Shown: positions 37,765-39,061 of the stretch, piece after piece
How positions within the stretch are numbered: the first letter of the stretch is position 1
How the letters are laid out: each line of letters starts with the position of its first letter
Source: Sinorhizobium garamanticum
GTDB taxonomy: Bacteria; Pseudomonadota; Alphaproteobacteria; Rhizobiales; Rhizobiaceae
NCBI RefSeq assembly: GCF_029892065.1
Contig: NZ_CP120373.1
Span: 3,541,001-3,605,000 of the forward strand
Length of the DNA stretch: 64,000 bases
Direction: 5' to 3'
The notes under the pieces: generated by a model
The model's input: only the letters and a program-made list of their open reading frames with translations
Database searches by the model: none
Told to the model about the DNA's origin: nothing
Made by a program: the position numbers and the translations under genes

Positions 37765-37782
37765 AAAAAAGCCCGGTTTCAA
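37765..37782 (+). terminator. Left half of an interrupted bidirectional terminator
   Basis: AAAAAAGCCCGGTTTCAA is the left arm. Its complementary arm, AACCGGGCTTTTT, is now at 39049-39061, 1.27 kb away. Removing the cassette and one TTTCAA copy rebuilds a perfect stem GCCCGGTT / AACCGGGC with A- and T-runs on both sides, serving sufA and gcvP. Confidence 0.8.
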
Positions 37783-37812
37783 CCCCAGCCCCTAACCGAA
37801 ATGTGGAATACT
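37783..37812 (+). repeat. Left terminal inverted repeat of the cassette
   Basis: Begins CCCCAGCCCCTAACCGAAAT and continues GTGGAATACT. It matches the reverse complement of 39015-39044 at 28 of 30 positions, with differences at positions 22 and 28. Confidence 0.9.
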
Positions 37813-37831
37813 TCCAGTCGCAGATATCTCT

Positions 37832-37867
37832 CGCGAAACTCCGACTTTTGCGAGTGGATTTTGCGAC
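37832..37867 (+). repeat. Subterminal direct repeat, left copy
   Basis: Pattern CGCGAAAC-T-CC...AGTGG..TTTTGCGAC. It recurs in the same orientation at 38848-38881 on the other side of the epimerase gene, with the first 8 and last 9 bases identical. A further TTTTGCGA lies inside at 37846. Confidence 0.6.
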
Positions 37868-37932
37868 GGGAACTGACAGGAAAGTTCGATGCTGGCGGTT
37901 TTATCGCGGAAGTTAGGATTTCTGTGAAATCC

Positions 37933-38823
37933 TTACTCCGCTTTCCTGCTGACATGCGAGCCGGGGGGCAAGACCTCCAGGCTGCGCCGATCCATTTGCG
38001 CCAGCACCTCACTAAAGCCAAAGCGGGGATGCCACCCAAGCGTGCGCTCGGCTCGTCCAGAGTCATATATGCGGTCGATGGAGTTTGGGAGGTACCATCC
38101 TCTCCGTTCAAACTCGGTCGCAAGGGCTGGTGCCCGCAGCCTGATAAGGGAAGCCGCGTCCATTGCCAGATTATGACAGTCCCGCTTCGTGAAAGGGGTC
38201 GCGGCCGAGATGATATAGCGCTGAAAATATGGCCCACTATTCGCCAACGCTGCCAGATGGGCATCGGCCACATCGCGAACGTCAACACCGCGATGCAGCC
38301 TGTAGGTGGCCATCACATCGCCCGGTTCCGGGAAGCTTCGCGACATGCGCAAAACCCGCACGGCCAATTCAGAGCAGGCCATGCCTTCCAGAAGATGCTC
38401 GGCTTCGAGTTTCGTCCGATGATAGATGCTCTTCGGCAAAGGAGCCGTATTTTCGTCTATCCACACACAGGAGCCGGGAGAAACGGCGTATCCATACAAG
38501 GCTGTGGTGCTGGTGAAGATCAGCCGTTTCACGCCAGCGGCAATCGCTGTCTTTGCGAGAAGGCGGACTCCCTCCACGTTGATGCGTTGAAATTCTTCAT
38601 CTGGAATCGTGCTGACATGGGGAGCATGGAGTGAAGCCGTGTGGATGACCGCATCCGCTTCCTTCAAAACAGAGCTTAACAGCGCTTCACTGACGAAGTC
38701 TCCGACGACATGGGTGGTTGAAAAGGGAGAGCGATCGATCCCGACCACCTCATATCGTTCTGCCAAGGCGCTGAAAATGGCACGCCCGACACGCCCGGAA
38801 CTGCCCGTAAGCACTATACGCAT
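37933..38823 (-). CDS. NAD-dependent epimerase/dehydratase (extended SDR), cassette passenger
   Basis: 296 residues. A Rossmann nucleotide motif TGSSGRVG is at residues 6-13. The catalytic Ser region is FTSTTALYG and the active-site YHRTK (YxxxK) lies near residue 133. VDVRDVADAHLAAL is another extended-SDR hallmark. Substrate is probably a nucleotide sugar or similar, but cannot be read. The gene reads as less GC-rich than its neighbours and lies wholly inside the inverted-repeat cassette, so it was probably acquired by transfer. It is codirectional with gcvP, whose terminator is split, so readthrough from the glycine operon is possible. Confidence 0.88.
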   Translation of the reverse strand: MRIVLTGSSGRVGRAIFSALAERYEVVGIDRSPFSTTHVVGDFVSEALLSSVLKEADAVIHTASLHAPHVSTIPDEEFQRINVEGVRLLAKTAIAAGVKRLIFTSTTALYGYAVSPGSCVWIDENTAPLPKSIYHRTKLEAEHLLEGMACSELAVRVLRMSRSFPEPGDVMATYRLHRGVDVRDVADAHLAALANSGPYFQRYIISAATPFTKRDCHNLAMDAASLIRLRAPALATEFERRGWYLPNSIDRIYDSGRAERTLGWHPRFGFSEVLAQMDRRSLEVLPPGSHVSRKAE

Positions 38824-38847
38824 GTGGAGCTTTCAAAAATCCGTTGC

Positions 38848-38881
38848 CGCGAAACGCCAATGAAAGTGGCAGTTTTGCGAC
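38848..38881 (+). repeat. Subterminal direct repeat, right copy
   Basis: CGCGAAAC-G-CC...AGTGG...TTTTGCGAC, matching 37832-37867. An inverted GTCGCAAAA follows at 38895 and a variant TTCTGCGAC at 38911. These could be transposase-binding or recombination sites. Confidence 0.6.
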
Positions 38882-39014
38882 TAAATTCTACCACGTCGCA
38901 AAAACCAATGTTCTGCGACAGGTGAGTGCGCAGAATGCTTCACGAAGATATTTCCAGCAAGATAAACCGCCCCAAACACCCATGCCAAAAGGGGATTCGC
39001 CATCAATATCAACT

Positions 39015-39044
39015 AGGATTCCGCATTTCGGTTAGGGGCTGGGG
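39015..39044 (-). repeat. Right terminal inverted repeat of the cassette
   Basis: The reverse complement begins CCCCAGCCCCTAACCGAAAT and continues GCGGAATCCT. It is followed on the plus strand by the TTTCAA duplication at 39045-39050. Confidence 0.9.
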
Positions 39045-39061
39045 TTTCAACCGGGCTTTTT
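39045..39061 (-). terminator. Right half of the interrupted bidirectional terminator
   Basis: TTTCAACCGGGCTTTTT, the partner arm of 37765-37782. It lies 45 bases beyond the gcvP stop, but on its own it can no longer form the original hairpin. Confidence 0.75.

Follow-up and report, generated by a model that had tools for sequence, protein, structure and literature searches.

A cargo-carrying cassette in the sufA-gcvP terminator of Sinorhizobium garamanticum, probably a mobile-insertion-cassette-like member of a previously undescribed hairpin-targeting insertion sequence family

We analyzed a stretch of 64,000 nucleotides (the window) of Sinorhizobium garamanticum, which belongs to a root-nodule genus, and found that the gap between its sufA and gcvP genes holds an insertion, in which inverted ends, a target duplication and both arms of a terminator are visible. 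Judging from sequence comparisons, the inserted element is probably a non-autonomous, cargo-carrying transposable cassette, similar to mobile insertion cassettes (MICs), that belongs to a previously undescribed, hairpin-targeting insertion sequence (IS) family. This reading is based on conserved ends, hairpin targets, a full-length relative in Rhizobium phaseoli, and homologues that lie between repeats and duplications. Flanking inverted repeats, a passenger gene and the lack of an internal transposase, which are features of a MIC, were all found in the element; its sole gene codes for an SDR/epimerase-like protein and, in agreement with the original prediction, no transposase is encoded.

The positions of all parts are listed in Table 1. 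Comparison with other insertions set the direct repeat at 10 bp and the core as running from CCAGCC through GGCTGG. The 30-bp inverted repeats originally predicted are present, with the correction that their outermost bases belong to the target. Similarly, the target is duplicated as proposed, but the proposed 6-bp duplication was dropped because TTTCAA is only the middle of the 10-bp repeat. The claim that the insertion split a terminator was borne out: both arms flank the element, and the flanks rejoined around one 10-bp copy read AAAAAAGCCCGG-TTTCAA-CCGGGCTTTTT, reach a ten-position stem score of 10/10 and fold into a hairpin with a 12-bp stem. Deletion of the element thus restores the hairpin, as had been claimed, with the borders of Table 1 and one 10-bp copy instead of 37783-39044 and one TTTCAA.

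Table 1 Features of the element at the sufA-gcvP terminator (positions in the window)
Feature	Position	Strand	Remarks
Left arm of split intrinsic terminator, AAAAAAGCCC	37765..37774		Stem continued by outer GG of target repeat; uninterrupted in relatives
Target-site duplication, left copy, GGTTTCAACC (10 bp)	37775..37784		
Non-autonomous element CCAGCC...GGCTGG, 1258 bp	37785..39042		
Left terminal inverted repeat, CCAGCCCCTAACCGAAATGTGGAATA	37785..37810	+	
Conserved left end (LE)	37785..37918	+	LE HMM 1-134, E 3.8e-38; profile from 15 copies including this one, score not independent
Palindromic 'L-type' site, GTCGC/TTTTGCGAC, inward of left repeat	about 37817-37931	+	Folds as hairpins
Cargo gene, 296-aa SDR/NAD-dependent epimerase-dehydratase-like protein	37933..38823	-	Pfam PF01370, E 3e-23
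Inner 'R-type' GTCGC site, upstream of cargo gene	38857..38915	-	About where homology between cassettes with differing cargo stops
Conserved right end (RE)	38856..39042	-	RE HMM 1-187, E 7e-57; profile from 14 copies including this one, score not independent
Right terminal inverted repeat	39017..39042	-	
Target-site duplication, right copy, GGTTTCAACC	39043..39052		
Right arm of split terminator, GGGCTTTTT	39053..39061		

The cargo gene points away from the right end, and no NCBIfam model matched its protein above the cut-off. Since a relative of this SDR gene in Agrobacterium salinitolerans (L110, 1500-3907) has as its neighbors a gene of the recombinase family and a Tn3-family transposase gene, the window's gene may have had more than one route of travel.

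To characterize the terminator in relatives, 33 genomes of the genus were surveyed; the sufA end was matched in 32 of them, and 30 loci were available, including that of the window. In 21 of the 30 loci gcvP follows sufA, namely in the window genome, in three loci with another cassette and in 17 with an uninterrupted inverted repeat (three of the 17 with one stem mismatch, and one, L140, with about 600 extra bases behind the repeat); gcvP was not found near sufA in the other nine. An exact empty site was identified in genome G005 (L118), which has one copy of GGTTTCAACC within AAAAAGCCCGGTTTCAACCGGGCTTTTT. Three of the four genomes closest by sufA identity (G025, G026 and G027; 92-94%) carry a cassette at the same terminator, which has the same kind of ends in the opposite orientation, contains a kinase-like gene and has lost the right terminator arm; we read it as an older, independent insertion in the same hairpin. 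In the fourth closest genome (G015; sufA 92%), the terminator is uninterrupted.

The occurrence of the ends was examined in larger genome sets. A 25-base end with up to three mismatches was found in 17 of 394 Rhizobiaceae genomes, compared with none of the 394 for a reversed control pattern, and in two of 397 genomes of an order-wide sample, both of them Rhizobiaceae. An exact end pattern occurred in 12 stretches of GTDB contigs, with plasmid matches in addition. Viral contigs gave no match to the end pattern or to the candidate transposase described below. Profiles of the RE (∼187 bp) and LE (∼134 bp) built from known copies picked up more copies. By our own tally, about 34 Rhizobiaceae loci have at least one such end, several of them recognized by a 25-27-base end alone. 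The window genome itself has a second cassette with an RE and a VOC/glyoxalase gene (L008 7085 to ∼7780; G000:C1 ∼3,204,084), for which a left end was not found.

The cargo is diverse. Besides SDR, it comprises GNAT genes (L015, L054 and L066), VOC/glyoxalase genes (L008 and L072), a PCMT-type methyltransferase with a nitrilase (L019) or with VOC (L045 and L067), another methyltransferase (L046), PhyH (L060), a lipocalin-like protein (L069), LysE with GNAT and EamA with LysR (L059), GST with MarR (L068), kinase-like genes (L020, and L114 by reading) and PIN-like/antitoxin-like pairs (L057, with PIN below the cut-off, and L056, by reading only); one copy of 221 bp (L058) has no cargo. Pfam was searched with 25 proteins, of which 23 were cargo candidates and the others an antisense ORF from the window and an IS1182 transposase, and no match was obtained for three of the 23 cargo candidates (L055, L056 and L062) and for the antisense ORF. 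With regard to orientation, 19 elements with 23 genes were considered, and 20 of these genes point away from the RE (P=0.0005), in a hand-listed count in which the GNAT gene enters with five related cassettes and from which L048, L056, L057, L062, L067, L068 and one-ended copies were set aside.

We then considered the sites of insertion. A partner test on 36 ends gave an accepted partner for 16 of them (15 distinct ones, as L016 is a near copy of L015) and no trusted partner for the other 20. A perfect 10-bp duplication flanks seven of the 15 two-ended elements (the window, L015, L054, L055, L057, L060 and L069), and the other eight have one to three mismatches, in pairs picked partly by their repeats; a further perfect 10-bp duplication, outside the 15, is present in G208. 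Targets of the 15 elements were reconstructed by joining the outer flanks around one duplication, and the stem scores were 10, 5, 9, 6, 9, 6, 9, 4, 8, 4, 7, 9, 5, 8 and 7. A score of at least 7 was reached at nine of the 15 sites and at 2% of 1500 random positions, and a score of at least 6 at 11 sites and 13% of these positions, which were drawn across the same loci and not restricted to intergenic regions. The mean folding energy of 40-mers was -15.2 at the sites and -9.7 in the control. L015, L017, L048 and L059b scored just 4-5 and are unconvincing as hairpins. The target is a hairpin or terminator loop at most reconstructed sites.

A candidate for the mobilizing protein was found from fragments. 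Directly inside an element end, L062 has 52 C-terminal residues of this protein, and a C-terminal piece is likewise present in G208, where an assembly gap splits the element and the pieces on the two contig ends look like the beginning and the end of a single reading frame; the missing interior was not found in G208 or its genus. A tblastn search with the C-terminal fragment led to the full gene on plasmid pRphaN261c of R. phaseoli, within a 1886-bp element (L144, 2338-4223) that encodes a 578-aa 'hypothetical protein' (WP_064820039.1). This element has CCAGCCACTTACTTAAATGTGGAATC at each end (repeats 16/16) and a perfect 10-bp duplication, GCTGATCCCC. Its repeat agrees with each of the two window repeats in 21 of 26 positions (counted by eye); CCAGCC is common to all three, and AAATGTGGAAT is shared with the left repeat of the window. 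It therefore supplies a further feature of a MIC, that is, ends in common with an autonomous IS. The target hairpin of the R. phaseoli copy is weak, and no GTCGC-type inner ends were seen in it. The original prediction had noted a resemblance to mobile insertion cassettes, and had suggested a search for an uninterrupted terminator in relatives and for a full-length relative of the repeats with a transposase. Both were found, the latter with a candidate transposase, and the comparison with MICs fits.

The family of the 578-aa protein extends to other proteobacterial classes. Homologues from Pseudomonas aeruginosa (L146) and Marinobacter (L150), 36% and 31% identical to it, lie between inverted repeats (16/16) that start with CAAGCC and are flanked by 9-bp duplications. 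The P. aeruginosa element splits AAAGGCCCTGTA-TCGC-TACAGGGCCTTT, a strong terminator-like hairpin, and the Marinobacter target hairpin is weaker. For the homologues of Polaromonas (L147) and Acidovorax (L149), repeats with duplications were not found. No curated family accepts the 578-aa protein. The best NCBIfam model was that of IS1 transposases (NF033558), with which three homologues scored 35.9 (the candidate), 25.9 and 23.6 bits, all under the cut-off of 100; Pfam gave a sub-threshold InsA zinc ribbon and nothing else, and comparison of the sequence with those of solved structures gave a best E-value of 0.27. The InsA-like zinc ribbon and the weak model match are a likeness to the IS1 family, in which duplications of about 9 bp are typical and the transposase has about 230 aa; the candidate differs in its length (578-614 aa), in a score far under the cut-off and in other ends. 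Invariant acidic residues in six aligned homologues include D223, D263, D364, D475 and E511, and we would guess from this conservation that they have a catalytic role. We infer that the protein is a candidate DDE-type transposase. It is rare: the window genome had no match at E⩽1e-20, and among 394 Rhizobiaceae genomes a single one had a match, which was a fragment. Among plasmids, it matched 125 records (90 of Enterococcus and 9 of Staphylococcus), with about 22% identity among the 40 matches listed, and some of these relatives on Enterococcus plasmids are annotated as 'insertion element protein'. One of them, a 650-aa protein of Enterococcus faecium (L151, 357-2309), aligns with the candidate over 98% of its length at 22% identity.

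Considering the preference for hairpins, the movers of the CCAGCC cassettes might instead be IS1182-family transposases. Members of this family target stem-loops, and IS1182 genes are found inside two cassettes with CCAGCC ends (L048, with a transposase of 390 bits against a cut-off of 270, and L068, with a broken one). IS1272, a relative with an IS1182-type transposase that moves TnSha1, targets inverted repeats (PMC5678879), and several of the hairpins entered by TnSha1 are confirmed terminators (PMC4923244); the targeted hairpins have no sequence consensus (PMC4923244, PMC5678879). TnSha1/IS1272 is the closest behavioral parallel to our element: it enters terminator hairpins, one of them independently in both orientations (PMC4923244), and carries a metabolic gene (PMC4923244, PMC5678879). 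However, it is described there as making no target duplication and partly deleting the stem-loop (PMC4923244, PMC5678879), whereas the window element has a 10-bp duplication, as made by CCAGCC cassettes, a terminator kept whole and different ends. The 'pathway c' loop-duplication route in PMC5678879 is how a loop-targeting element with a duplication might look, although the duplications of the present cassettes are always 10 bp long. In addition, the nested IS1182 units have ends of their own (GCAGACCGTCT...), not CCAGCC. Two copies that share 1661 of 1662 positions differ in their outer flanks, three of the four having an exact GTCGC, and such units therefore look inserted into GTCGC palindromes. 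On these grounds we rejected IS1182 as the mover, which is quite unlikely. Exact GTCGC was found in 14 of 21 IS1182 flanks, compared with 4.0% of 4000 random 24-mers; seven flanks lack it, two of them even at one mismatch. The IS1182 clade found in GTCGC palindromes occurs in L048, L068, L088-L096, L098 and L099, and a divergent passenger gene (for GNAT, NIPSNAP or a deaminase) is present in several of these copies.

A transposase of the IS4/IS231 type, as for the classical MIC231, is highly improbable as the mover. The MIC concept was founded on IS231 (PMC3913671), and duplications of 10-12 bp for IS231 and 10 bp for ISH8 are given in PMC2266710, so that the duplication length alone fits. The IS4 ends tabulated there, on the other hand, start with CA, CT, YT or -AAT, or CW for IS50, and never with CC, as the cassette ends do instead of CAT; furthermore, the full-length element with CCAGCC-type ends encodes another protein, which no IS4 model matches. 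We prefer the undescribed family represented by the R. phaseoli element. In this mechanism, the 578-aa protein would bind the CMAGCC ends, recognize a hairpin, either as an extruded DNA cruciform or by its shape, make a staggered cut about 10 bp apart across the hairpin loop, and move its own element as well as the cassettes in trans. Recombination at the GTCGC palindromes, which lie a short way inward of the ends, would probably be the route by which cargo is gained or swapped.

Several observations bear on this last step. Homology among cassettes with differing cargo stops at GTCGC-rich stretches near gene ends. Modules also recombine: the VOC gene that stands alone in L008 of the window genome is 86% identical to that of L045 over 373 bp, and the methyltransferase genes of L045 and L019 are 86% identical over 912 bp; gene combinations differ among cassettes. 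The GNAT cargo of Rhizobium and S. fredii cassettes also occurs in the window genome without transposon ends. This free copy (gene at ∼3,197,706-3,198,152; L008 640-1185, that is, G000:C1 ∼3,197,639-3,198,184) has a GTCGC R-type site upstream and 95.6-97.3% DNA identity to the L015 and L054 cassettes over 518-527 bp. The match starts inside the upstream site and stops 17-29 bp past the stop codon, and no L-type site was seen downstream. The occurrence of the same gene without ends suggests that cargo is swapped at the GTCGC palindromes that lie inward of the element ends. The cargo could also have been varied only by homologous recombination after insertion, the cassettes being dead relics: the end regions offer 100-190 bp of common sequence, sufficient for homologous exchange, and several family copies have decayed ends. 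Yet the perfect duplications and uninterrupted sites indicate that whole units transposed, and the breakpoints lie at the GTCGC site beside the start codon even in the copy without the vehicle, which makes this explanation improbable. Homologous exchange is nevertheless the default for the cargo-swap step itself, where it is compatible with the transposable-cassette reading.

A broader proposal is that Rhizobiaceae plasmids have an integron-like cassette system without a known integrase, for which the GTCGC palindromes serve as exchange sites and in which single genes with GTCGC borders move between plasmid arrays, the chromosome and the CCAGCC transposon, the latter being the vehicle into terminator loops via a new hairpin-targeting transposase family; we regard this as possible but doubtful. 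On pTi-SAKURA (L109, NC_002147 58000-107000), GTCGC motifs lie in many gaps of the accessory region and in few among the tra genes; 62 matches were counted, compared with 9.0 in a weak control made by mononucleotide shuffling. The accessory region in L109 has a cassette-array-like build. One ∼80-bp palindrome was found in 82 plasmid records, of which many are near-copies; among the 40 matches listed it touches unrelated genes, for DMT transporters, NUDIX proteins, HAD phosphatases, GNAT and methyltransferases. L-type sites with 74-76% identity are also present on plasmids of Citrobacter, Paracoccus and Pseudomonas (L103, L104 and L106), which suggests transfer outside Rhizobiaceae. Like integron cassettes, the CCAGCC cassettes have single accessory genes, mostly in one orientation, palindromic border sites, and varied combinations and places. 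The attC core consensus of integrons is RYYYAAC/GTTRRRY. In contrast to integron cassettes, attC core motifs are absent from all nine GTCGC sites searched, and the vehicle has transposon ends. In an Rfam search of seven loci at the gathering threshold, the GTCGC sites matched no family, the single match being an unrelated sRNA. No gene annotated as an integron integrase lies within the stretches examined; L105 has a 'recombinase family protein'.

Known MICs, such as MIC231 of Bacillus cereus and mic-qnrD of Proteeae, are described in PMC3913671 as having IS-like ends, a target duplication and a passenger gene without a transposase. The window element resembles them in its IS-like ends and duplication around a passenger, with no internal transposase. 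The CCAGCC elements differ in belonging to another IS family, in being loop-targeted at most reconstructed sites, in having more than 10 cargo types and in inner GTCGC borders common to unrelated cargo. Among the top results of literature searches outside subscription papers and ISfinder, there was no description of CCAGCC ends, of the GTCGC sites as repeats or of the candidate protein as a transposase. Beyond the original prediction, our data support a 10-bp duplication, hairpin targeting at most reconstructed sites, cargo exchange at GTCGC and a candidate transposase outside curated families.

Thus, a testable candidate can now be named for an unannotated transposase family. The insertion gives the host a self-contained gene and breaks no coding sequence here, its cost being a split terminator, and it is a clean case of structure-guided insertion. 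In this family, one kind of ends is combined with many genes unrelated to one another; their borders fall on GTCGC palindromes, which are also present in the accessory region of a Ti plasmid.
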